This document shows, piece by piece, positions 49,597 to 62,484 of a DNA stretch of 64,000 bases. The stretch spans positions 27,660 through 91,659 of the forward strand of contig JAFVDD010000051.1 in NCBI GenBank assembly GCA_017478725.1, in the 5' to 3' direction. The position numbers and the translations under genes were made by a program. A model generated the notes under the pieces. The model had not been told where the DNA came from, ran no database searches, and saw nothing but the letters and a program-made list of their open reading frames with translations. The stretch is from Paludibacteraceae bacterium. Its GTDB lineage: Bacteria > Bacteroidota > Bacteroidia > Bacteroidales > Paludibacteraceae. How positions within the stretch are numbered: the stretch's first letter is position 1; each line of letters begins with the position of its first letter.

Positions 49597-52500
49597 TTAA
49601 CGAACGCGCTGTCCGTCAATGGTGTAGGTCTTGTCGCCGCGGCGGATGATGATCATGCCGTTCTCCAAGGTCTTGACAGCCTTCACCTCAGCAGCCGTGT
49701 TGTCGATAGCGTCTGCACCGCCCTTAGCAGGGAAGGTTATTACTACCTCGTTGTAGCCGAAGATCCATGTGAACTGGTACTCGCCGGTCACATCAGCTTG
49801 GAACCAAAGGTTTTTTCCATCGTTTATGAGTTCCGAAGCGGTGTTCACAGAACGGGTAATCTCAACGCCGTCGCCATTCCAGCCCATCCACTTGTTGTCA
49901 ACATACATCTTGAAGGTCACCCAAGTTTCAGCTTCGATTGTCTTGGTTGCGGTAGCTGACTTGCGGTCTGCTGACAGTACAGCTGCATCTGCTGTTGTGC
50001 TCCAACTATTGAGATCGCCTGCGAGATAAACCGTCTGCGGCACCAAAGCACCGTAAACCTTGAATACTTCGTTAGTATAGGTAATCGTCACATCGCCGGC
50101 CTCGGCAAGCGTGAAGTGAATATTACCGTTTTCGCCGGCATACAGACCTGCGATGAGCTCTGATTGAGTCAGGTCGTCGAAGCCCTTCATGTTGCTCCAT
50201 GTGCCGTCCAACGACAGTTTGAACACATGACTTCCTGCCGGTACATTCTTAAAGGTATAGGAATCTTCCAGCGCTTTCACACCAGCGGGTTCCCAGTTAT
50301 AGCCGGTGAACTCTTCATTTCCGGTGATGTAGAACTTCACAGCGGTGAAGGTAGCAACAACCTCTATATCCTCGGTGCCTACGGTGAACTGCTTAACCTC
50401 AAGGATGTCCACGCCGCCTGCGGTCAGTTTGGTCAGTGCATGACCATTCTTAGAAGCCTCAACGGTCAGAACAGTACCCTTGGTGAACGCATCGCCGCTG
50501 GTGATAGCCACACCGGCATTCTTAACCGTAATCGACTCACCGAAGGTCACTGCGTGTTTGTTCACCGTAACGGCTACGTCGAACCACTCGCTTGCATAGG
50601 TCTCGCTCTCATACTCATAGGAAGCTTTTACCTTAACGGTTCCGTCTTCGGTAACAGTCTCAGGATCAGTTGTCCATGTTAACTCATCCTCTACAGCAAT
50701 TGCCCAACCGTTGGTATATACATCCTTAACGCCAAGACCGCTGTGGTCAAATGCGTCACCGTACTCATAAGCGGTCTTGCTGGCAGTGCCGTAAATGGCT
50801 GCATGATCCCATTCTCCTGCATCGAACGAGAGGATGTAGCTTCCTGCGCTGAACTCATAAACAGAGTCCTTCGCATAATAGGTGATATTACCGAACACAC
50901 GTACCTTCTCGCCTTTAATAACGCCTGCTTCAGCCTCAAAGTTCTGATTGTTAACATCTTTGCCGTTGTAAATCTCGAACTTCGTTCCGGTGAGGAAGCC
51001 GTTCTCGTCCAAGTCTTGGATGAAATAGGTACGCGTACCTGCCATAGCAGCTGTTACATCTTCGCTTACATAAGCTTCTACTACAACGCCTGTAGTAGTA
51101 CCGCTGTTGTCGATAGCAGCGATAGCCTCAGCTACGGTGTAGAGTTTAGTGAACTTGGCAGTGATGGTCACATCGCTTGCCGGCATTGCGAAAGTTGTAG
51201 AAAGAGCCTGAGCATTTGCGAAAGAAACCTCTTTGTTAGCCTCCCAGCCGAGGAATACATAGCCTTCTACAGCCGTAGCCGAAACGGTTATCTCGTCGCC
51301 GTAGTTCTTGTTCTCCTGGTTAGCAGAAAGGGTTGCGTTTGCGCCACCTTCTTGCGCCATCGTAACGGTGTAGTTAACCTTAGCAAAAGTCGCGGTAACA
51401 GTGAGAGTGCCTGCGGCTGTCTCTGCAGGGATAGAAATCTGCTTTGTGTCTGCATCATAACTTGCAGCAGCTACACCGCTGATGGCAATGTTTGTCAACT
51501 CATAGCCTGTGGCAACCGTTTCCTCAACAACGATTGTTACGTCATTGCAAGTCTTAACAGACTCAACCTCAACGCCGTTCACTTTGAGTGCAAACGTATT
51601 GCCGTTGTCCTCACCAGCCTTAACAAACTCAACTTCGTCGCAATGCGGACAAGTAGTCAGGTAGTCGGAGTAAGAGGTAACGGATTTCGCAACTTCATAT
51701 TTCACCTCAATAGCAGTAAACTTAACTTGTCCATTAGTTGCTGTACCACTATTGCCAACACTAAATGTTGCAGATGTACCTGTAGCACTAACAGTCGAAC
51801 CACTTGTAACTTGAGTTTCGCCATCTAAAAGTACTCCTGTGTTGCTTATATTATATGTAAGCTTGATGGATTTCAGTTCACCAGACGTCGTAGCAATAGT
51901 AATTTTTGCAGACTCGCCTTGATAGAAACGCCATTCATTTCCGCTTGTATAATACTTACCTGTATTTGTTCCAGAAGATGCAGTTGCTGTTACATCAGAG
52001 TTGAGCGTAACAGAACTATATTGTGTTCCATTGCTCCAACTGTTTGCAGTAGCATAGTCAGAGATGGTTACCGAAGCAGTTTTCTCCTCGGTGCCCTCCT
52101 CTACCGTCTTCGTTGCAAATACAGCGTAGAAGTTGACGTCAGCTGCAGGCATTTCGGTCTTGGAGGTATAAGTCGGAGCATTTGCTTGTGCCACGGCCAG
52201 CGGAGCTTCCGCCCAGCCCATGAAAGTCAAACCTGCGCAATCGCCTGTAGCTACAGCCTCAGGAGCTTCCTCCAATGCGGTGCCGGCCAAAGCGGATTGT
52301 GTCTTCTTAGCCACGCCGTTCACATACCATGTAGCCGTATATTTCTTCTGTACGGTGAGGGTATAGAAGAGATCATCTTCAGCAATAGCGTTGACGGTGT
52401 CGTTTCCGGCAAAGTTCACAATGATGAAGGTCTCACCCGGAGCCACGAGTGTAATCACGCCATTCGCATCAACGGTAGCTACATCTTCGTCTGTGCTGCT

Positions 52501-54447
52501 ATACGTTACCGGCAGGTTACGCGGGTTGGTCAGCGTCGGGAGAGAGCTCATCTCGCCGATGATAGCTGTAGCCTCGTCAGCGCTCCATGCGAGATTAGCG
52601 GCCAGTTTGTTAACGGTCAGCGAGAGGTTGACAGTCTTGCTCTCTGCGCCGCCACCGGCTACTGTGATCTTGCCGTCAAACGTGCCGGCAGCACTCGTCT
52701 TGGGAGTAACCGTAATCTGTGTCTCAGCCAGCAGACCGTCCACAGGAATAGAGGTAGCGTTCAGCGTATAAGCATCCTTGATAGCATCATCCAGCGTAAT
52801 GGTTATATTGCCGGCTGTCAGGTTGGCACCCGATACATTGAAGCTTTGAGCCACAGGAGTAGATTTAATATCTACAGAGCCGAAGTCCAGTGCTGATTTG
52901 GAAACTACAATAGCCGGAGTAGCACTTACTTTGTATGCGCCGCCGATGGTCACATCGTAGTTCGGCATCACAAAGCGACCGTCCTCATGCTCTATTTTGG
53001 TCTCGCTGTCGCTTGTACGATAGATATCCAGATCGCCATCCAGTTCGTAGCCTGCCGCAGGAGCAGCGGCTGCTTGGATGTATGTTCCTGCCAGCACATA
53101 AGTCGGGTTGGCGTTCTCTGCGTCATCTTCCCATGTAAAAGTACCGTTGCTTACCTCTGCAGCTTCGATCTTATAACGCGGAGTAATCTTGGCGGTTACG
53201 GTGAACAAATCTATATCTACGCCATCCGGATTGGAGCTTGTACCTTTGATGTTTACAACACCGCTGAGCGTGCCTACCGGATTGAGGTCATACAGACTGA
53301 CGGTTACTTCTTGGTTCACATTGCCTTCGCCATCGGGGTTGATATAAACAGGCTCAACTGTATATCCGGACGGAACAATCATTGCCAATTGTTGTGTCAG
53401 GTGTACACCTTTAACTGTGAAAGTATAGCCGGCAGGAGTCTCGTCGTACTCCAGCAGGTCTTGACCGAAGTCATGGTCTGCGCCGTCTTCTGTCCATACG
53501 CGCTCTTTTACAGTCAGTTTGGCTGCCACTTTGGCTGTGTCGGTACCCAGACCGCCACCGTTAACCAAAATATTGCCATCGAATGTACCGGTAGCCGAGG
53601 TACTCGGAGTAACTGTAATGGTTGCCGAAACAGCTTTGCTCGCATCAGGAGTGAGAGAGCCGGTAGTTACCGCAGTACTAAAACCGGTGGGAGCCGTAAC
53701 AGTCAGTGCGCCCGTCAGATTAGAACCGGTAATAGTGAATGTCTTAGCCTCAGCATCCAGGCCCTTATATGTCGTTCCAAAATCCAAACTCTTTGGCTCA
53801 AGAGAAACGCCCGGTTTCTTTGCGGCAGCTTTGTAGAATGTTATTTCTACTGCATCAATACGCCAGTTGCCAGATGTATTTGTTGCTTCAAATAAAAGAG
53901 CAAAATACCCCGAGCATTCATCGAACGTAAAATCGGCATCAGAAATGGTTGCTCCCTGAGTTCCACTAGTGAGCTTTAGCTGAGAAAATGTAGTGTTGTT
54001 AGATGAATACAGCAAATATACTTTAGTGCTTGTATCAGCGCTACCACCAGTATGTTTATAACTGATTTTGCTAACATTGTTAATAGCAGTGGTAGAGGCA
54101 AAAGCGCTAGCAGTAGATGATGTCGTCACAGGAGAAACAGCATATTTGGAGTAATTTGCAAGTGTGCAACTGCTTCTGTTATTCTTGTTTGTTCCAACAG
54201 AAGATTTATTACCTCCATATGTAATTATCCATCCTCTGTCATCAATTGTTTTTTCATACTTGGCGTAGCTGGATGTGTTATTGACAACAGCTGCAGAGGT
54301 AATTGTAAATAATTCCTCGTAATCAGCCGCCCACATACTTCCCGCGCCGACCGTGAGAAGGACGAGTAAAGTGACTGCAAAACGTATACCTTTGCTATAC
54401 CCTTGGTATACCTTTGCATTACTTGAAAAAAGTTTTAGTTTTCTCAT
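49597..54447 (-). CDS. large multidomain secreted surface protein, 1616 aa
   Basis: A signal peptide (to about residue 40, ending AGSMWA) is followed by an N-terminal module to about 212 and the junction AAAKKPGVSLEPKSLDFG. Two choice-of-anchor-D-like repeats follow (about 213-320 and 515-620; SLDFG, SALDFG, TGTFDGNI, AGTFDGKI), then a BIG2-like Ig domain (622-705) and an InlB/Flg_new-like repeat (about 710-780). Later come TYFIQDLDENGFLTG (OB-fold-like, about 1130-1230), Ig-like repeats and a CBM-like segment. The C-terminal motif is KTLENGMIIIRRGDKTYTID. The N-terminal module lies between two inverted 23-bp repeats. Likely T9SS cargo displayed on the cell. Confidence 0.85.
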   Translation of the reverse strand: MRKLKLFSSNAKVYQGYSKGIRFAVTLLVLLTVGAGSMWAADYEELFTITSAAVVNNTSSYAKYEKTIDDRGWIITYGGNKSSVGTNKNNRSSCTLANYSKYAVSPVTTSSTASAFASTTAINNVSKISYKHTGGSADTSTKVYLLYSSNNTTFSQLKLTSGTQGATISDADFTFDECSGYFALLFEATNTSGNWRIDAVEITFYKAAAKKPGVSLEPKSLDFGTTYKGLDAEAKTFTITGSNLTGALTVTAPTGFSTAVTTGSLTPDASKAVSATITVTPSTSATGTFDGNILVNGGGLGTDTAKVAAKLTVKERVWTEDGADHDFGQDLLEYDETPAGYTFTVKGVHLTQQLAMIVPSGYTVEPVYINPDGEGNVNQEVTVSLYDLNPVGTLSGVVNIKGTSSNPDGVDIDLFTVTAKITPRYKIEAAEVSNGTFTWEDDAENANPTYVLAGTYIQAAAAPAAGYELDGDLDIYRTSDSETKIEHEDGRFVMPNYDVTIGGAYKVSATPAIVVSKSALDFGSVDIKSTPVAQSFNVSGANLTAGNITITLDDAIKDAYTLNATSIPVDGLLAETQITVTPKTSAAGTFDGKITVAGGGAESKTVNLSLTVNKLAANLAWSADEATAIIGEMSSLPTLTNPRNLPVTYSSTDEDVATVDANGVITLVAPGETFIIVNFAGNDTVNAIAEDDLFYTLTVQKKYTATWYVNGVAKKTQSALAGTALEEAPEAVATGDCAGLTFMGWAEAPLAVAQANAPTYTSKTEMPAADVNFYAVFATKTVEEGTEEKTASVTISDYATANSWSNGTQYSSVTLNSDVTATASSGTNTGKYYTSGNEWRFYQGESAKITIATTSGELKSIKLTYNISNTGVLLDGETQVTSGSTVSATGTSATFSVGNSGTATNGQVKFTAIEVKYEVAKSVTSYSDYLTTCPHCDEVEFVKAGEDNGNTFALKVNGVEVESVKTCNDVTIVVEETVATGYELTNIAISGVAAASYDADTKQISIPAETAAGTLTVTATFAKVNYTVTMAQEGGANATLSANQENKNYGDEITVSATAVEGYVFLGWEANKEVSFANAQALSTTFAMPASDVTITAKFTKLYTVAEAIAAIDNSGTTTGVVVEAYVSEDVTAAMAGTRTYFIQDLDENGFLTGTKFEIYNGKDVNNQNFEAEAGVIKGEKVRVFGNITYYAKDSVYEFSAGSYILSFDAGEWDHAAIYGTASKTAYEYGDAFDHSGLGVKDVYTNGWAIAVEDELTWTTDPETVTEDGTVKVKASYEYESETYASEWFDVAVTVNKHAVTFGESITVKNAGVAITSGDAFTKGTVLTVEASKNGHALTKLTAGGVDILEVKQFTVGTEDIEVVATFTAVKFYITGNEEFTGYNWEPAGVKALEDSYTFKNVPAGSHVFKLSLDGTWSNMKGFDDLTQSELIAGLYAGENGNIHFTLAEAGDVTITYTNEVFKVYGALVPQTVYLAGDLNSWSTTADAAVLSADRKSATATKTIEAETWVTFKMYVDNKWMGWNGDGVEITRSVNTASELINDGKNLWFQADVTGEYQFTWIFGYNEVVITFPAKGGADAIDNTAAEVKAVKTLENGMIIIRRGDKTYTIDGQRVR
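53805..53827 (-). repeat. left 23-bp inverted repeat at the N-terminal module junction
   Basis: On the minus strand it reads TGCCGCAAAGAAACCGGGCG plus TTT, encoding the AAKKPGV junction of the 1616-residue protein. An exact inverted copy is at 55151-55173, 1.37 kb away. Confidence 0.9.
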
Positions 54448-54548
54448 AATGTTAGAAATTTTAGTTAGTTGTATAAAGTTGTTAAAGTAATTCCATTATT
54501 GCCAACTATTGACAAACACTTAATATTAACCAACTAAATTAACGTATT
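54448..54548. other. divergent leader between two surface-protein modules
   Basis: This 101-bp region contains no TAnnTTTG box on either strand, unlike almost every other unit in the window. The two halves are similar when read outward (TTAGTTAGTTG... against TTAGTTGGTTAAT...), so the two genes have related 5' leaders. Confidence 0.6.
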
Positions 54549-55202
54549 ATGAAACATTTCAAACTTCATCATGGGGAATTAACAGGGGTTGCTCCCGGTT
54601 CTATTCCGACACGCTCCCGACTCGATTCTCTCTCGTTAGTGTCTCGCCAGTCTGTTTTGGGCATCTTACTTGTGTTCCTGACACTGTTTAGCGGCAATGT
54701 TTGGGCGGCGGTAAATGGGGCTATAACCTCTACACTTGCTGCTGGCGACCAAGTTGTCCTCATTAACACTAGCGGAACCGCAGAGTTTAATGGTGTTAGT
54801 AGTAATATCGGGCAGAAAGCCGATTACTCTGGCACTCCAAACGGAACATGCATTTTGACTGTAGAAGCTGGTAAATCCGGTTCTGGGAATTTCTCTTTTA
54901 AAATGAGTGATGGTAGTTACTTGGCATACACAAGTACCTCCACATCTAGCAATAATTACCTTCATACAGTTTCTAATCCAAGTACGACTGCTGAAAATCA
55001 GCAAGTTTCTTGGACGGTTACATTTGATAATAATAATGCAGCAACCGTAAGAAACGTGTACAACACAAACCGTTACTTGAATTACAACTCAAGTAGTCCT
55101 CGCTTCTGCTGTTATACCTCAGGACAACAAAACGTAAAGTTCTTCAAACTTGCCGCAAAGAAACCGGGCGTTTGTCAAGAGCCGGCACAGTGGCCGGGTT
55201 GA
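54549..55202 (+). CDS. truncated surface protein (N-terminal module only)
   Basis: Encodes 217 residues. A long N-terminal region with a signal peptide ends in GNVWAA near residue 57, and a beta-rich module follows (LAAGDQVVLIN, YLAYTSTS, TNRYLNYNSSSPRF). The end KLAAKKPGV copies the junction of the 1616-residue protein, then EPAQWPG and a stop where the long repetitive body should begin. As it stands the gene lacks body and sorting domain. It lies head to head with the large gene and shares the 23-bp inverted repeat with it. Confidence 0.7.
   Translation: MKHFKLHHGELTGVAPGSIPTRSRLDSLSLVSRQSVLGILLVFLTLFSGNVWAAVNGAITSTLAAGDQVVLINTSGTAEFNGVSSNIGQKADYSGTPNGTCILTVEAGKSGSGNFSFKMSDGSYLAYTSTSTSSNNYLHTVSNPSTTAENQQVSWTVTFDNNNAATVRNVYNTNRYLNYNSSSPRFCCYTSGQQNVKFFKLAAKKPGVCQEPAQWPG
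55151..55173 (+). repeat. right 23-bp inverted repeat
   Basis: Identical to the minus-strand sequence at 53827-53805 and read in the same frame (GCC GCA AAG AAA CCG GGC GTT). Similarity extends about 15 bases upstream with three mismatches. Confidence 0.9.
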
Positions 55203-55226
55203 GCGGATGGAGTTAATTTAGTTAGT

Positions 55227-55463
55227 TGTATTAAGTTTGTCAAAGAACGTTCGCGTTCGGCAACAAGGTCGCATAGACCAAATCGCAGATTTGTTAGGGC
55301 GACTTGTGCCTCCGCTCTCCCCACTGGACGCACTGCGTTAGCGTCCATCGGGGACCCCGAAAAGGGGGAAGGCGCGCTATCTGACTGCCCCATGGGGCGC
55401 AGGATATGATATCTCTTTTACTCCGCCCGAAGTTATCGGGCAAAGGGATCTTTGAAAGATTGA
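55227..55463. repeat. intergenic element with GTCAAAGAAC and GGGATCTTTGAAAGATTGA ends
   Basis: Left end TTGTATTAAGTTTGTCAAAG (from 55227), right end GGGATCTTTGAAAGATTGA at 55445-55463 immediately after a GCCCGA/TCGGGC hairpin. The ends are imperfect inverted copies of each other. About 200 bp between them include structured-element copy 2. Shorter relatives with the same ends are at 56243-56312. Confidence 0.65.
55279..55358 (+). other. structured repeat element, copy 2
   Basis: Stem CAAATC/GATTTG, linker TTAGGGCG, four bases, GTGCCTCCGCTCTCCCCA, stem TGGACGC/GCGTCCA, CGGGGACCCC. The linkers match copy 1 (45124-45194) exactly, while both stems differ in sequence. Confidence 0.7.
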
Positions 55464-55530: not shown

Positions 55531-55953
55531 TCAGCGGGATATATGCATGCTTGTCAAAAGCAAACAAAAATCATTGTAAGTAAGAATAGCAGTTTGCCCG
55601 TACTTGCAAATAACAAGCAAATCCTTATCGCCTGTAACGATAAAGTCCGCAGGAATAGCTTTTGCCATTGCAAGCAAATAGACATCCTTGGCATCTCTAA
55701 TCTCTAATTTAACGTCCGGATAGTTCTCTACCGGCAAACAGCGTTCGCGTATAAGTGTCCACATCGCTTCAATTGATTCAGAGGAAATATGCTGACGAAC
55801 TTTGGGACGCGATAAGACATCTGTGAGTTCCGAAATCAAGTGCTCCGAAACATAGATGTGTATGTTCGGATTAGAGAACAAGTCAGCAACTGTATGCAAC
55901 TGCTTGCCAAACAAAAAAGACACCCAGATATTTGTATCAAGGATTACGTTCAT
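55531..55953 (-). CDS. PIN-domain toxin
   Basis: Encodes 140 residues. PIN ribonuclease fold: MNVILDTNIWVSFL holds the first Asp, SEHLISELTDVL the Glu, and DAKDVYLLAMA and FIVTGDKDLL the remaining acidic residues. Such proteins are RNases of VapBC-type pairs. The start at 55953 overlaps the antitoxin stop by four bases. Confidence 0.85.
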   Translation of the reverse strand: MNVILDTNIWVSFLFGKQLHTVADLFSNPNIHIYVSEHLISELTDVLSRPKVRQHISSESIEAMWTLIRERCLPVENYPDVKLEIRDAKDVYLLAMAKAIPADFIVTGDKDLLVICKYGQTAILTYNDFCLLLTSMHISR

Positions 55954-56147
55954 TTCCCGTAACGTACTGCGTTGACTTCTGCTTGGATTTCCTCTTCGCT
56001 GAGAGCATTGGAGGGGTTCGCATTGCAAGCCTTGATAAAATGATCAATGACCGTAGAGGGTTTCTCTACAATCCAGCCCATGCGACTTGCAAACTGCATC
56101 ACCATAGCGACATCTGCCGAAGGCATTCTTAATACGATATCTTCCAT
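55950..56147 (-). CDS. antitoxin partner of the PIN toxin
   Basis: Encodes 65 residues starting MEDIVLRMPSADVAMVMQFA and ending in an acidic helix (LSEEEIQAEVNAVRYGK). The start at 56147 follows the promoter at 56177. It is typical of small Bacteroidales antitoxins next to PIN genes. Confidence 0.75.
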   Translation of the reverse strand: MEDIVLRMPSADVAMVMQFASRMGWIVEKPSTVIDHFIKACNANPSNALSEEEIQAEVNAVRYGK

Positions 56148-56176
56148 AGTCGTGCTTAAATTAACTTTTGCCGCTG

Positions 56177-56207
56177 CAAAAGTACTGCTTTTTTTTGACA
56201 TACGCAA
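56177..56207 (-). promoter_or_regulatory. promoter of the PIN toxin-antitoxin pair
   Basis: Minus strand TTG (56207-56205) followed by CGTATGTC, 20 bases, TACTTTTG (56184-56177). Confidence 0.8.
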
Positions 56208-56242
56208 GAAAAGGCGCAAAAAAATGCACTTTATCAGTCAAT

Positions 56243-56312
56243 TTCAATACGTCAAAGAGCGTTATATATAGTCTGTCCGGCTAAACGGACAAAGGGATCT
56301 TTGAAAGATTGA
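56243..56312. repeat. short copy of the intergenic element
   Basis: Left end TCAATACGTCAAAGAGCGTT, hairpin TGTCCG/CGGACA (56274-56291), right end GGGATCTTTGAAAGATTGA (56294-56312). The right end equals that at 55445-55463, while the hairpin stem has a different sequence. A degraded right end (GGGAACCCTGAAAGATTG) is near 56468. Confidence 0.7.
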
Positions 56313-56527
56313 CATAATGGATACAAAAAGCGGCAACCCGCTTGTTGTATGGATTACCGCGCGCTTAAGCTAAAACTCGCACGACTGCGTGCTCTGCACT
56401 TGTAGAATGCTACGTTTTGTTCTACGCTTTTCCCACAGCAAACTGCCGGAGGCTTGGTTTACTTTGGGAACCCTGAAAGATTGTTAGTATATCACCATGC
56501 TTTGAGCAATAATGCGATGAACATATA
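56313..56527. other. gene-free stretch downstream of the element
   Basis: No coding frame with a plausible start. It contains a few small inverted repeats (for example GTAGAAC/GTTCTAC types) and the degraded element end near 56468. Confidence 0.4.
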
Positions 56528-56785
56528 CTATATTTTTTCAATAGAGTAAAGAATAGCCATTTCTTTATAGTTGATGCGTCTAATTTCCATTCCATATTGG
56601 TTAGCCAACTCCAGCTCTATTGGGACATTATCAGCTCCTTGTTCTAACGATTTAATCTTTGTGTTTAATCCGGCAAGGTAGCGTTTCGCAGTCAAGGGAG
56701 CACGATATTGAAAAATTATCGTAGTCCGAAGGCTAGCAATGTCGCTTCTTGCTTTTGTGGATAGAAAAATATCAAAACGCTTCAT
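56528..56785 (-). CDS. RelE/ParE-family toxin
   Basis: Encodes 85 residues. FDIFLSTKARSDIASL and the C-terminal YGMEIRRINYKEMAILYSIE match the ParE/RelE superfamily: two helices, then a beta sheet with the conserved Arg/Tyr region. Two bases separate it from the antitoxin upstream. Confidence 0.75.
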   Translation of the reverse strand: MKRFDIFLSTKARSDIASLRTTIIFQYRAPLTAKRYLAGLNTKIKSLEQGADNVPIELELANQYGMEIRRINYKEMAILYSIEKI

Positions 56786-56787
56786 TG

Positions 56788-57030
56788 CTATGCTTCGCGA
56801 ATATCATTCATACCATATGCTTGCCCAACCTCATGGCAGAGATTATCATATACCTCCGACCATGGATGCATAGGCTTGCTCTTGAAATCAACATCGATAA
56901 GCGGTTTGCTATCACGAATGATTGCTTTCAATGCGGTATCAAGTTCTTCTACTGTATGGAGTTTCTCCCAATGTTCCATAGAAATTGTTCCTGCCGGCTG
57001 CATGAGAGGCTGTTTTACTGTTGCTTGCAT
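56788..57030 (-). CDS. antitoxin partner of the ParE-like toxin
   Basis: Encodes 80 residues starting MQATVKQPLMQPAGTISMEH, with helical dimerisation region and a toxin-binding tail (WSEVYDNLCHEVGQAYGMND). The start at 57030 is preceded by AGGAGGAACTCAT, an unusually good Shine-Dalgarno sequence for this genome. Confidence 0.7.
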   Translation of the reverse strand: MQATVKQPLMQPAGTISMEHWEKLHTVEELDTALKAIIRDSKPLIDVDFKSKPMHPWSEVYDNLCHEVGQAYGMNDIREA

Positions 57031-57065
57031 ATGAGTTCCTCCTTTCGTTTTTACCTTTGTCGCTG

Positions 57066-57096
57066 CAAAGGTACAACAAAAAATCCGAACATGCAA
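57066..57096 (-). promoter_or_regulatory. promoter of the ParE-like pair
   Basis: Minus strand TTG (57096-57094), 20 bases, TACCTTTG (57073-57066). Confidence 0.8.
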
Positions 57097-57405: not shown

Positions 57406-57543
57406 ATGGAACAATATCCGTACACAGTGAACGAACTCCGCGCAAGTGTGGAAGAAGGCACTCGTCAGGTGGAGAGCGGTCAGTATTACACTGATGCTCA
57501 GGTTAACCGTTTATTAGAACTCCGCAGACGTCAATTGGCATGA
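57406..57543 (+). CDS. antitoxin, 45 aa
   Basis: Encodes MEQYPYTVNELRASVEEGTR and an Arg-rich helix ending in LLELRRRQLA. Short, directly behind a promoter, and coupled by ATGA to the toxin gene. Confidence 0.75.
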   Translation: MEQYPYTVNELRASVEEGTRQVESGQYYTDAQVNRLLELRRRQLA

Positions 57544-57854
57544 TGCAAATCATTTGGTCAGAGCGTGCTTTCATCCGTCGTCAAGCGATAGAGGATTATA
57601 TTCTAATTTCGTTTGGCTATATTGCATATACCAAATACGTTCATGCGATTGATGCATGGAAAGAGTTGGTATTGACTCATCCGCAAGCAGGAGCCATTGA
57701 GCCTTTGCTAACAGGAATGCGTAAGGAGTATCGCAGTTTTGTGATTGCCAACCAAACCAAATGTATTTATTACATAGAAGGTAACGATATTGTTTTTGTT
57801 GACTGGTGGGACACTCGACGTTCCATTCAAACCTTAACTTCAGGGCTTCATTAA
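57540..57854 (+). CDS. RelE/ParE-family toxin
   Basis: Encodes 104 residues: MMQIIWSERAFIRRQAIEDY, then RKEYRSFVIANQTKCIYYIE and VDWWDTRRS, the usual ParE/RelE pattern of two helices and a beta sheet ending with WDTRR. The start overlaps the antitoxin stop. Confidence 0.8.
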   Translation: MMQIIWSERAFIRRQAIEDYILISFGYIAYTKYVHAIDAWKELVLTHPQAGAIEPLLTGMRKEYRSFVIANQTKCIYYIEGNDIVFVDWWDTRRSIQTLTSGLH

Positions 57855-57857
57855 ACA

Positions 57858-58393
57858 TTAAAACATTTTCTCCGGCGTAACACTAACGCCCGGTTCTGTT
57901 GATGGAATGTATAGTGTTAAATCGTCCAAGCAACGAGCGGCAGTAGTGCCATCGTAAAAAACTCCGACATAGACATTCTTATAGCTACGCAAATCTCGTT
58001 GGATTCTATACCACGTGCCTTTAGTTATGCCGTCACCTGCAGCTTGTGCATCTCCGACTTGAGTCCACGTTTTACCATCTGAGGATACTTTTACAAGCCA
58101 AGAAGCGGCCTTGGAATTCGTTGATAGTTTACTAATATAAAACTCAACCGAGTCCGGTGCAGCAATTTTGTTCTTAGTCACAATGGAGCCACTTGCTTTA
58201 CCGTCTGTTGAACCGAAATACAGCCACCATGTGCAGAAACTCCAGAATTAGTCTGCTGCGTGGTAATAGTGGTAATTGTCCAATCCGTGTAAACAGAAGC
58301 GGCACTTTCAAAGTCGACCGTCAAATCTGCCCACGCACCCACGCTGAATGCTAATAGCATCAGCAGGGAGAGAAAGAGTTTTTGTTTTTTCAT
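57858..58393 (-). pseudogene. frameshifted surface-protein N-terminal module
   Basis: The first frame (58393 to 58178) has a signal peptide MKKQKLFLSLLMLLAFSVGA (WA follows) and ends prematurely. A second frame from about 58240 continues WLYFGSTDGKASG through a discoidin-like region to STEPGVSVTPEKMF and a stop. A single-base indel near CACATGGTGG (about 58235-58245) separates them. The end matches the KKPGVSLEP junction of the 1616-residue protein, after which the body is absent. Head to head with the gene at 58618. Confidence 0.75.
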
Positions 58394-58617
58394 AATGTAA
58401 TTGATTTTGTTGTTTATAAAGTTAACCAATATAGGCCGATTTGGATAAATATATCTGCGCGTCTGTCGGGTGTCTTTTATGGAACGGTACAAGGTTCATC
58501 AAGACCGACCGACGACCGAGACACCACCGAGACACCGTCGAGACGTCATCGAGGTTTTATCGAGGCATTATTTATGTACAATTAACTCAATAATTAACTT
58601 TTAAACTCTTTTACATT
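58394..58617. other. divergent leader of the second surface-module pair
   Basis: No TAnnTTTG box found on either strand. A low-complexity stretch repeats CCGAGACACC-like units (about 58505-58560). Both genes begin after an ...ACATTATG leader resembling that of the large gene. Confidence 0.5.
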
Positions 58618-59187
58618 ATGAACAAAAAACATTTACTCTTACCCCTCTTACTGGCCTTTGTCATCGGCATCGGCAATGTGTGGGCGGAAACGTACAATCT
58701 CGTTACGGATGCCAACGACTTATCCGATGGAGACAAAATATTGATTGTATCTCCAGCGGGGAGTGTTAAATCAAGTGGAACTACATATAATTATTCTGCA
58801 CAAGCCTTAACTTCTACTGCATCCTCTACAAGGCTTGCAGGTAGTACTGTAACAATATCTTCTAACACTATCACTTCAACAAATGCGGAAGAATTTACGT
58901 TATCAAAGAGCACAGATAGTTGGAAAATATATTCGGGTACAAAATACCTTACAGCAACGGCAAAAAATCAATTAGCAACGGGTGCCGAAAATAGTGCTTT
59001 GGCGTTCTCTATTAGTATCGAAGGCACGGCAGCTACGATTTCTTGCGTAGTTGGCTCAGATAATGTAAAACTTCAGTTAAATGCCACGGTTTCCAACTCG
59101 AAAGTAAACACATATTTTGCTTTATATACAAGTAGTCAAAAGGCGGTGTACATTTTCAAAAAGGAGTCAAAAGAACCGGGCGATTGA
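58618..59187 (+). CDS. truncated surface protein (N-terminal module only)
   Basis: Encodes 189 residues. The signal peptide (MNKKHLLLPLLLAFVIGIGN, then VWAE) is followed by a beta-rich module resembling that at 54549 (LSDGDKILIVSPAG, TKYLTATAKNQ, VYIFKKESKEPGD). The end SKEPG is the shared junction, after which a stop replaces the body. Probably silent unless recombined. Confidence 0.7.
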   Translation: MNKKHLLLPLLLAFVIGIGNVWAETYNLVTDANDLSDGDKILIVSPAGSVKSSGTTYNYSAQALTSTASSTRLAGSTVTISSNTITSTNAEEFTLSKSTDSWKIYSGTKYLTATAKNQLATGAENSALAFSISIEGTAATISCVVGSDNVKLQLNATVSNSKVNTYFALYTSSQKAVYIFKKESKEPGD

Positions 59188-59466
59188 GATGTGCCAAAAA
59201 AGAGGGTGTTGTTTCAACAATTGTATTAAGTATGTCAAAGAGCTATTCTATTCAATTTTCAGAGTACTGAATAGCGGTACTATGGGGTATCTAAAATCCT
59301 ATTGGATTGCTTGTTTTCTGTCTGTTCCGAGTATGTGGTCACAAATTGTGACCTCATCCATGCGGCTTCCTGTGGCTCAAGTTTAGTTTTAGTATCTTGT
59401 GAGGATGTGGTTAAAATTCACAACCATCTCTACAACCTCTTGCTTATCAAGCGCATACGTTTAGTG
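59188..59466. other. gene-free stretch with an element left end
   Basis: TTGTATTAAGTATGTCAAAG and AGC (59221-59242) resembles the left ends at 55227 and 57149. A GAATAG/CTATTC hairpin follows (about 59243-59275). Nothing coding. Confidence 0.45.
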
Positions 59467-59874
59467 TTACTTTAAAGTCCGTAAGAATTCATCCAGATGG
59501 AGAACTAAGATTTTCGGAAAATCTATCTTGCTTAAAACATCAAAGTGACTATCATTGGACACGATATAAGTAGCATTAGCAACAAATGCGCAGTCCACAA
59601 ATTTATTATCATCAGGATCAACCTTTATCAACTCTAAATGAAAGCGAGGATCGAAAAACTCCACAAACTCACTTTCTACCAAAGTAGCGAGCACATTATC
59701 CGCAATCTCCGAAGTAGTCAGACGCGCGATTACTTCATGGTATTCTTCCAATATCTCATTTGACACACACAAAATGTACATCCCCCGTTGGAGAGCACGC
59801 CATACTTGAAAGTTTTCACTCTTCGACGAAAGCGACGCAATCAGGCAATTTGTATCAAGTACGACCTTCCTCAT
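59467..59874 (-). CDS. PIN-domain toxin (second pair)
   Basis: Encodes 135 residues. MRKVVLDTNCLIASLSSKSE, NEILEEYHEVIARL, DPDDNKFVDCAFVANA and IVSNDSHFDVL carry the four acidic positions of PIN ribonucleases of the VapC / COG1569 type. Start overlaps the antitoxin stop by four bases. Confidence 0.88.
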   Translation of the reverse strand: MRKVVLDTNCLIASLSSKSENFQVWRALQRGMYILCVSNEILEEYHEVIARLTTSEIADNVLATLVESEFVEFFDPRFHLELIKVDPDDNKFVDCAFVANATYIVSNDSHFDVLSKIDFPKILVLHLDEFLRTLK

Positions 59875-60125
59875 TGTTCGGAATAACGATAAGGAGTACG
59901 CAAATGTGTATTCAGTATAGCCTCATTTTTCTCCGCACTCCACTCGCCGTTCTCCCACAGACGATCCATCTCTGCAGTAACTTTTTGTGCATAATAATTA
60001 GACACTATCTGACGCAACTCTTGTATTTGCTCAACAGACTTCATCTGTCCAACCACACGAAGCAAACCCATTCGCGCTTCATGTAGGGTCATTTCTCTTG
60101 CTGACATAGAGTATTTGGTTTTCAT
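59871..60125 (-). CDS. antitoxin partner of the second PIN toxin
   Basis: Encodes 84 residues, helical and charged (MTLHEARMGLLRVVGQMKSV; LWENGEWSAEKNEAILN). The ATG at 60125 lies only about four bases after the expected transcript start, so the ATG at 60107 (MSAREM) is a real alternative. Confidence 0.75.
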   Translation of the reverse strand: MKTKYSMSAREMTLHEARMGLLRVVGQMKSVEQIQELRQIVSNYYAQKVTAEMDRLWENGEWSAEKNEAILNTHLRTPYRYSEQ

Positions 60126-60223: not shown

Positions 60224-60838
60224 CTAATTTTCAGAGGAAAGAATGTATTTGGGGATATAGGCGCGGAGGGTGTTGCGGTTGCAATGGAGACGGCGTGCTA
60301 TCTCGCGCTGGGAGAGTCCTTTGGCCAGTGCGCGGCGTATATAGGCGTCGTGTCGGTAGAGCGGGTGCGCCTGCCATGAGTTGTGTGATCCTTTGGCGCG
60401 GCCTATATGCACGCCTTCGGCTTTTCTGCGCGCCAGGGCTTCGCGTGTGCGCTGGGAGATGAGATTGCGTTCGATCTCCGCCGAGAGGGCGAAAGCGAAC
60501 GCCAGCACTTTGGACTGGATATCATTGCCGAGGCGGTAGCCGTCCTTGACCGTCCAGACGCGCACCTCATGCTCCATACAGAAACTGAGGATCTCCATGA
60601 TCATGAAGACCGAGCGTCCGAGGCGGCTGATCTCGCTGCAGACGAGCAAGTCGCCGCGTTTCATGCGGCGGAGCAGTTGCCCCAGACGACGGGTGCGGTA
60701 AGAGCGTGTGCCGGAGACAGTCTCCTCGATCCAACCATCGATAGAGAGGTGTTCGCGGGTACAGAACTGAGTGATTTCAAAACGCTGGTTCTCAACGGTT
60801 TGTTTGTCGGTTGAGACACGGATATAGCCATATGTCAT
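60224..60838 (-). CDS. Mpi-family serine recombinase (DNA invertase)
   Basis: Encodes 204 residues. Resolvase/invertase catalytic domain: nucleophile Ser9 in YGYIRVSTDKQ, then KRGDLLVCSEISRLGRS and the long helix SKVLAFAFALSAEIERNLIS. A C-terminal helix-turn-helix follows (LAKGLSQREIARRLHCNRNT). It matches the master DNA invertase (Mpi) group that flips promoters between inverted repeats in Bacteroides. A GTG at 60877 would extend it through a heptamer repeat. It is a natural candidate to act on the inverted repeats at 53.8 and 55.2 kb, though the target is unproven. Confidence 0.88.
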   Translation of the reverse strand: MTYGYIRVSTDKQTVENQRFEITQFCTREHLSIDGWIEETVSGTRSYRTRRLGQLLRRMKRGDLLVCSEISRLGRSVFMIMEILSFCMEHEVRVWTVKDGYRLGNDIQSKVLAFAFALSAEIERNLISQRTREALARRKAEGVHIGRAKGSHNSWQAHPLYRHDAYIRRALAKGLSQREIARRLHCNRNTLRAYIPKYILSSEN

Positions 60839-60866: not shown

Positions 60867-60968
60867 AGCCTCCTCACGAAAACAGCCCGCCGGGAGGCGA
60901 GCTGAGGTAGTAATGGGCAACAGGTTACCAGAGTACCAGATTTCCGGGTTACCGGATTACCGAAACGA

Positions 60969-61697: not shown

Positions 61698-61970
61698 TCA
61701 AAACAGGTCGGAGTGTGTTCCTGTGTACAAAAACAAAAGCGTCAATTCAGTGTCATTCTGCCTCCACACCAACAACCAGTTGGGCTCAATATGGCACTCC
61801 CAGTCTCCTACATACTGCGAAGAAAGTTTATGGGGTTTATACTGAATAGGCAATGCACCTTCTTTTTCCAGAATGCGGATTGCTTCCTGCAATTTGGCAA
61901 TGTTCAACCCTCGCTTCTGACAGCGTTTTACATCTTTCCTGAAGCGGTTAGTGTAATCTACTTTGTACAT
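61698..61970 (-). CDS. YafQ-family toxin
   Basis: Encodes 90 residues. MYKVDYTNRFRKDVKRCQKR, then HKLSSQYVGDWECHIEPNWL and YTGTHSDLF. The conserved GDWECHI..NWLL and C-terminal TGTHSDLF mark the YafQ branch of RelE-like mRNA interferases, with the catalytic His in THSDLF. Its start shares one base with the antitoxin stop. Confidence 0.92.
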   Translation of the reverse strand: MYKVDYTNRFRKDVKRCQKRGLNIAKLQEAIRILEKEGALPIQYKPHKLSSQYVGDWECHIEPNWLLVWRQNDTELTLLFLYTGTHSDLF

Positions 61971-62398: not shown

Positions 62399-62413
62399 GT
62401 CAGAGAGGTTCCT

Positions 62414-62484
62414 GTGCTCCGGATGACCGGATTTCCGGATTACCAGATCTCCGGGAAGCCGGATTACCGGAAAGCCGGGAGTCA
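62414..62484. repeat. degenerate CCGGATTACCGG-type repeats
   Basis: CCGGATGACCGG, TTCCGGATTACC, AGCCGGATTACCGG and GCCGGGAG follow one another downstream of the partial surface-protein gene. A similar run (TTACCGGATTACCG) is at about 60925-60962, downstream of the other secreted-protein gene. Confidence 0.7.

Follow-up and report, generated by a model that had tools for sequence, protein, structure and literature searches.

How can one giant exported protein come to carry either of two different N-terminal heads? This question is raised by a 64-kb stretch of DNA from a Paludibacteraceae bacterium (contig JAFVDD010000051.1, positions 27,660 to 91,659; hereafter the window), where a large minus-strand gene (54447-49597, 1616 aa) lies beside a short divergent open reading frame (ORF) on the plus strand (54549-55202, 217 aa). 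The two genes, here called pair A, share an exact 23-bp inverted repeat. The results presented below allow us to conclude that the locus is very probably a two-headed gene switch, in which the head of the large protein would be swapped by inversion of the segment between the two repeat copies.

An earlier note on this DNA, made from the sequence alone, had placed the 23-bp repeat in inverted orientation in both genes, and the search clearly confirmed it: the arms (Table 1) are identical over all 23 nt and are embedded in a 49-nt stretch with 84% complementarity. Both genes read the repeat in the same frame, as AAAKKPGV and LAAKKPGV, and the translations agree with that note in putting AAKKPGV at the boundary between head and body; the near symmetry of the arms, 620 and 602 bp from the two ATGs, follows from the coordinates. 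The divergent ORF comes to a stop 9 codons past AAKKPGV. Within the window, a script found this to be the only exact inverted repeat of at least 16 nt with 60-8000 bp between the arms. Two copies of the 23-mer are present in the 2.16-Mb assembly (84% complete) when up to three mismatches are tolerated, and none of the reversed control. Each gene of the pair possesses its own start codon, its own signal-peptide-like stretch and its own head, and the two heads (A1 in the large gene, A2 in the divergent ORF) bear no meaningful similarity to each other (best match of 13 residues, E-value 6.9).

Inversion of the segment between the arms in silico created an open 1610-residue ORF composed of the A2 head, AAKKPGV and the body, and shortened the A1 gene to an ORF ending in CQEPAQWPG*. 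The simulation thus bears out the proposal that a crossover within the repeat keeps the frame, joins the alternative head to the body and truncates the first head. Since both starts are inside the segment, the switch would be of the either/or type. We propose that the body of the giant exported protein stays outside a 1.3-kb segment carrying the two divergent heads, and that an Mpi-family serine invertase may recombine two same-phase sites, one at the end of each head. The flip would put A2 in place of A1 on the body with the frame kept, and the displaced head would be left as a short truncated ORF, the outcome being a choice of head rather than an on/off decision. In a classical promoter inversion the repeats lie outside the coding sequence, around the promoter, whereas both arms of pair A are within ORFs. 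Intragenic inversions, as reportedly described by Chanin in 2024, alter the coding sequence with both repeats in one gene, whereas the arms here belong to two divergent ones. The layout found, an inverted repeat in a gene and, in frame, in a shorter divergent partner, is that of gene-altering programmed inversions; Milman, Yelin and Kishony are said to have described these in 2023 as a gene with a shorter partner, asymmetric in size and orientation, which is the layout seen in the window.

The recombinase gene of the window matches PF00239 (7.6e-33) and, by the curated NCBIfam model, belongs to the Mpi family, so that the serine invertase gene previously reported at about 5 kb is indeed there, 5053 bp from the silent arm of pair A. 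Its residues R7, S9, R72 and R75, which we take to be catalytic, fall in invariant columns among 11 aligned relatives. The nearest Mpi to that of the window was found in genome G128 (77-78%), and, among named records, the nearest are Paludibacteraceae and uncultured Bacteroidales metagenome-assembled genomes (MAGs), mostly of ruminant source.

The layout recurs beside Mpi genes. The recombinase search in a genus sample of 151 genomes gave matches in 101, and the 113 loci analyzed, the window included, are the surroundings of matches scoring from about 230 bits upwards and of two weaker ones, with other weak or partial matches left out; four of these loci (L134, L232, L233, L234) have no Mpi ORF by the pattern used. 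The loci were scanned for exact matches of at least 16 nt that a long ORF shares with the final 150 nt of a shorter one. Divergent ORFs gave seven matches in frame (six loci) and two out of frame (one locus), convergent ORFs none in frame and four out, and ORFs on the same strand 19 in frame and 14 out; in an earlier scan (102 loci, without L224-L234 and with a longer minimum ORF), 16 of the 17 same-strand in-frame matches were due to the repeat-rich L190 and L191 or to simple repeats. Another 47 named loci yielded one divergent in-frame case (L263) vs. one divergent match out of frame, the convergent counts being 0 and 5. When the short-ORF condition was lifted, L165, L135 and L144 were added, all in frame (21 repeats listed, ten assigned). 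A head pair was assigned in 14 of the 113 loci (the window, L076, L127, L132, L135, L136, L137, L139, L141, L142, L144, L152, L161 and L165) and in one locus beyond them, L263. The arms of the assigned repeats of at least 16 nt are in frame in ten cases out of ten, although being in frame was a search criterion for seven of these. Five loci were assigned on short repeats only, namely L076, L127, L139 and L161, with arms of 11-14 nt, and L132, which was assigned through comparison with L144. Short exact matches are frequent by chance (of the divergent matches of at least 12 nt, 55 were in frame and 78 were not), and the first four therefore rest on motif, layout and position and not on repeat length. 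Three of 11 in-frame divergent matches of at least 14 nt (L076 at aa 1611, L130 and L178) were chance-like and were excluded from the count. No match of at least 16 nt in any layout was found in 18 control loci lacking a retrieved Mpi gene (280 kb), a weak control, since only about one divergent match is expected there.

The order Mpi - silent head - active head - body was observed in all 11 pairs measured, with the 3′ end of Mpi toward the silent head in nine and the silent site within 300 bp of Mpi in six; by coordinates, L132, L144 and L165 follow the same order. In the measured pairs, 8-38 codons separate the site from the end of the silent ORF, and the active one continues for 380-2298 residues, some of these lengths being clipped at the end of the retrieved stretch. 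In a phylogeny of 111 Mpi proteins, the ten loci then labelled as pair loci contribute 11 Mpi rows, all of which fall within one half (51 rows, support 95/84) and are dispersed inside it (9 changes; 25 of 500 shuffles as low). We hold with high confidence that the layout is a head-swap switch of this lineage. Adjacency and order point, with moderate confidence, to Mpi as the enzyme that would drive the inversion, and we hold with less confidence that the copy in the window still flips. At L135 (G021), an in-frame repeat (7451 and 14294) links two long ORFs (1709 and 2433 aa) that enclose Mpi, and a flip would therefore trade the heads of two bodies and invert Mpi itself.

Furthermore, the arms of different loci, aligned by eye, share a core approximating TGGYTCAA-n-AAAY-GG-n-C-GTTT-n-TTGAGCC. 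In a held-out test on 20 arms (eight other loci plus pairs A and B of the window, the latter described below), right half-sites were reverse-complemented and scored on the left-half matrix of other loci; they exceeded the background both for the ten active arms (Fisher p 6e-13) and for the ten silent ones (Fisher p 3e-10), with the reservation that the register round the core was set by eye and that several loci share a homologous joint, INGS. Six loci outside the matrix, taken with one arm each, gave p 3e-7. These are L142 and L263, left out of the first test for want of an immediate alignment, and the later found L132, L135, L144 and L165; 8 of their 11 arms had p < 0.05, the exceptions being both L142 arms and one L135 arm, and one L263 arm was unalignable. 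Translation of the string TTGAGCC gives L-E-P in the window and L-S in L127, thus indicating that protein selection alone is an insufficient explanation for the motif.

The exchange itself may be visible between two related species. Pairwise blastn of 27 loci was performed, and the pair examined closely was G030 (L132) and G015 (L144). Common to both are the locus, Mpi and a body of like orientation, 83% identical over 3.5 kb. The head joined to the body in G030 has a 97.2% identical counterpart (527 nt) that is inverted in the silent slot of G015, and past the site the silent gene of G015 runs on into 290 nt that match the tail of the G030 silent gene at 96% identity. Between the two similar regions there is an overlap of 39 bp containing the site, and the G015 arms form a 22-bp exact inverted repeat. 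Judged by these alignments, G030 and G015 look like before and after a flip. Two orientations at one orthologous locus are thus seen between two related species, the window species itself being represented by one assembly. The recurrence of the layout beside Mpi-family genes, the in-frame arms, the DNA motif common to loci and this species pair all speak for the claim of the earlier note that a coding module, and not a promoter alone, is swapped.

Heads were also found on other bodies. In G128, an A2-like head (60%, residues 18-203) is encoded in a single ORF together with a body that has 54% identity to that of the window over 453 aa. In G114, similarity to A1 (68%) stops at the joint, and none of the ORFs of that locus matches the window body. 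Besides the genome of the window, these two were the only ones among 178 genomes with matches below 1e-25. As far as such comparisons tell, the heads are cassettes. The A2 model, built with ten relatives (one of them head B2 of the second pair), reached a predicted local distance difference test score (pLDDT) of 82. A Foldseek search with it placed the BEL lectin first, followed by interleukin-1, FGF, CBM42 and others, all of them beta-trefoils (E 4e-5 to 1e-3, template modelling score mostly 0.6-0.7, identity 10-18%). A2 is therefore predicted to be a beta-trefoil, a fold common to lectins and cytokines, which leaves sugar binding as only a hypothesis. The A1 model (pLDDT 50) was too poor for a structure search. 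The two heads may differ in ligand, A2 having a predicted lectin-like fold, and the earlier suggestion of an antigenic or receptor-specificity switch gains plausibility as regards a ligand change from the predicted trefoil. The large protein is presumably exposed at the cell surface. The genome encodes the PorV family of type IX secretion, the sole component of that system checked (354.7 and 135.7 bits, cut-off 90), and the C-terminal signal TIGR04183 has eight matches in the genome, none of them on the large gene, so that 'surface' remains our reading of the data. The tail of the body, KAVKTLENGMIIIRRGDKTYTIDGQRVR, is similar to the tails of five further long ORFs located close to Mpi genes.

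Table 1. Features of the switch locus and of the related pair nearby (window positions)
Feature	Positions	Strand	Basis
Large gene, constant body beyond the joint	49597..53804	-	ORF; InlB-like Flg_new_2 domains, Pfam PF18998 1.8e-15; C-terminal tail KAVKTLENGMIIIRRGDKTYTIDGQRVR
Putative crossover site, arm 1 (joint AAKKPGV)	53805..53827	-	Exact repeat, reading frame
Head A1 (signal-peptide-like start and module), now fused to the body	53828..54447	-	ORF; model weak, pLDDT 50
Head A2 (signal-peptide-like start and predicted beta-trefoil), silent/truncated slot	54549..55150	+	ORF, model, fold search
Putative crossover site, arm 2	55151..55173	+	Exact repeat, reading frame
Short tail past the silent site, stop-ended, CQEPAQWPG*	55174..55202	+	ORF; compare CCEPVMAHTDA* in G082
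Head B1 of the second pair; frame broken; joint STEPGVSVTPEKMF*, no body behind	57858..58393	-	ORF, translation
Core GAACCGGGCG at the B1 joint	57887..57896	-	Motif search, reading phase
Head B2, silent, 189 aa, distant A2 homologue (28%)	58618..59187	+	ORF, comparison
Core GAACCGGGCG at the B2 joint	59173..59182	+	Motif search, reading phase
Mpi-family serine recombinase, complete ORF	60227-60838	-	NF009949 307.7 bits vs. cut-off 272; alignment

A second, related divergent pair, B1/B2, absent from the list of the earlier note, was found at 57858-59187 (Table 1). The core GAACCGGGCG is common to the A and B joints and is read in the same phase in all four, the long arms being present at two of them only. 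Sub-threshold NCBIfam matches of head B2 to AB5 B-subunit models (14-16 bits vs. cut-offs of 165-203) were taken as chance. Pair B may be a decayed second switch or a set of spare heads for a shufflon. In the latter case, the window would hold a multi-site system, where A2, B1 or B2 could each be joined to the body via the shared core ACCGGGCG. Such an arrangement is consistent with four core sites in one codon phase and in alternating directions, and with the clustering of RAACCGGGCG sites, the assembly having 11 in all and four of them within these 5.4 kb, at the A and B joints; past the core of 10-11 nt, however, the match between the B arms is poor (76% over 29 nt), and B1 is frameshifted. 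We regard the shufflon as a possibility worth keeping in mind, but a doubtful one.

The simple switch at pair A has itself to be weighed against a number of unfavourable observations. The other orientation of the window segment was seen in no read, strain or second assembly, the species being represented by a single assembly; a scan of IMG/VR with the 23-mer for the other orientation gave no match, and a genome-contig collection that may omit the window's own genome yielded no relative when scanned with the 1616-aa protein in full. The half-site test places the window sites among the weakest (p 0.03 for A1, 0.10 for A2, 0.04 for B1 and 0.07 for B2), L142 fails it (p 0.62 and 0.35), and single-site dyad scores compared with shuffles gave p of 0.05 or more for 20 of 24 arms and p < 0.05 for the other four. 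Mpi is 5 kb from pair A, farther than in the other ten pairs, with toxin-antitoxin-like genes and the second pair between; in L135 it lies between two long genes, breaking the usual order, and in 99 of the 113 loci no such pair was assigned. At G128 no site is visible at the joint, where the head similarity stops, and about 170 other residues precede the body similarity. As to the species pair, both G030 and G015 are short-read MAGs; the silent head of G015 is frameshifted, and its signal peptide is unlike that of the active G030 copy. Together with the active head of G015, which is a different one, this implies more than one event between the two genomes.

Part of these observations, namely the weak half-sites of the window and the 5 kb with toxin-antitoxin-like genes before Mpi, as well as the decay of pair B (B1 with a broken frame and no body), would suit a fossil switch, i.e., a layout made by Mpi-driven inversion that is now locked in the window genome. 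On the other hand, the arms are still identical over 23 nt, the frame of A2 is intact, and the Mpi ORF is complete, with the residues conserved among relatives all present; we consider a fossil unlikely. Nor do the data favour an exchange of heads by RecA-type homologous recombination or gene conversion with no invertase involved. The occurrence of heads on other bodies in other species, such as the A1-like head of G114, and the signal peptide that was also exchanged in G015 could be explained in this way, but the shared stretches are merely 11-25 nt, which is very short for homologous recombination, and neither the adjacency and fixed order relative to Mpi nor the dyad-like site motif common to loci would be expected, making this route quite improbable. 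Finally, a repeat kept without recombination, as a shared motif of the coding sequence, for instance a KPGV or INGS linker, under protein selection, can hardly be credited: the sites do encode short Gly/Pro/Ser-rich linkers at the head-body boundary, with the homologous joint INGS in several loci, but in ten loci the arms are identical over 16-25 nt, synonymous positions included, between unrelated or distantly related heads (the clearest similarities among the 11 pairs are 31% over 385 aa in L141 and 36% over 108 aa in L127), the peptides vary by locus (KPGV, QTG, INGS, QTNGT, SPEPT) round a similar DNA core, TTGAGCC is read as L-E-P or as L-S, and a head was exchanged at the site between G030 and G015.

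Inversions that swap coding parts are well known. The serine invertase Gin of phage Mu exchanges coding parts of the tail-fibre genes, and shufflons swap coding modules; the Mu G segment and PilV vary the C-terminal part, whereas in the window it is the N-terminal head with its signal peptide that would be swapped. The hsdS shufflons of Bacteroides fragilis have been described as using tyrosine integrases (PMC3090145). Mpi of B. fragilis, a global promoter inverter (PMC4747536), falls into the same NCBIfam equivalog as the window recombinase, but the targets described for it there are promoters, whereas the putative sites of the window are inside the coding sequence and the protein head would be exchanged. 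At the mba / UU172 surface-protein loci of Ureaplasma, inversion at short inverted repeats leads to alternate expression, and chimeric genes have been proposed (PMC3047005); this is a different phylum, and the abstract names no recombinase and describes no constant body with two complete heads. Thus, while coding inversions are known, an Mpi-linked N-terminal head swap appears new within a limited literature search, where no title on it was found; this is weak evidence of novelty, as subscription papers were mostly outside its reach.

In broader terms, we lean slightly towards the view that one branch of Mpi, a known promoter inverter, has turned into a coding-sequence recombinase in rumen Paludibacteraceae and flips heads on giant exported proteins; different binding folds would alternate at one locus, and a pool of heads would be shuffled among bodies across the genus via a common DNA site doubling as a protein linker. 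If so, a well-known enzyme family of surface variation would extend from promoter switching to protein-head exchange, which would help to account for the N-terminal differences among large exported proteins of rumen Bacteroidales. The switch offers a concrete site and junction to test and predicts hidden alternative proteins in existing assemblies. It might also partly explain the above-expectation breakage of contigs next to Mpi genes in this group: for 12 of 113 Mpi genes, a contig end is no more than 300 bp away vs. 2.5 expected. Among 32 hand-picked contig ends near Mpi, the half-site p was about 0.02 or less in five (0.7 expected) and below 0.005 in two (0.16 expected), and one of the five (G128, L075) is upstream of its gene and not at a head joint. 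An excess of half-sites at such contig ends is suggestive only.

Several minor observations concern the Mpi genes and their surroundings. Two G128 contigs, one with Mpi (L124, 1-30) and the other with the A2-like gene (L075, 1-30), both start with AACCGTCCC followed by a half-site-like sequence. Adjacent double Mpi genes are present in G030 (L132, 8731-11097) and G094 (L139, 14018-15645). Close Mpi relatives occur in Akkermansiaceae/Akkermansia, Treponema and Fibrobacteraceae records (L273, L278, L284, L285, L295, L309), including the named Treponema vincentii and T. berlinense, which reflects either cross-phylum transfer or, for MAGs, mis-binning.

In the window, toxin-antitoxin-like genes are found between or beside the heads and Mpi (55531-57096, 57540-57854, 59467-60125 and 61698-61970); the set comprises two PIN-domain genes, a weak ParE-like match under its cut-off and a gene of the YafQ toxin family. 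Relatives of the stretch near 57.4-57.9 kb occur close to Mpi in G030, G055 and G102. An element like TTGTATTAAGTTTGTCAAAGA lies 3′ of both silent heads (55226-55246 and 59221-59241) and also at 56241 and 57147, and some other loci have similar CAAAGA-type sequences 3′ of the silent site. Repeats of the TTACCGGA type, with an eight-base period, were observed at 60917-60965 and 62400-62480.

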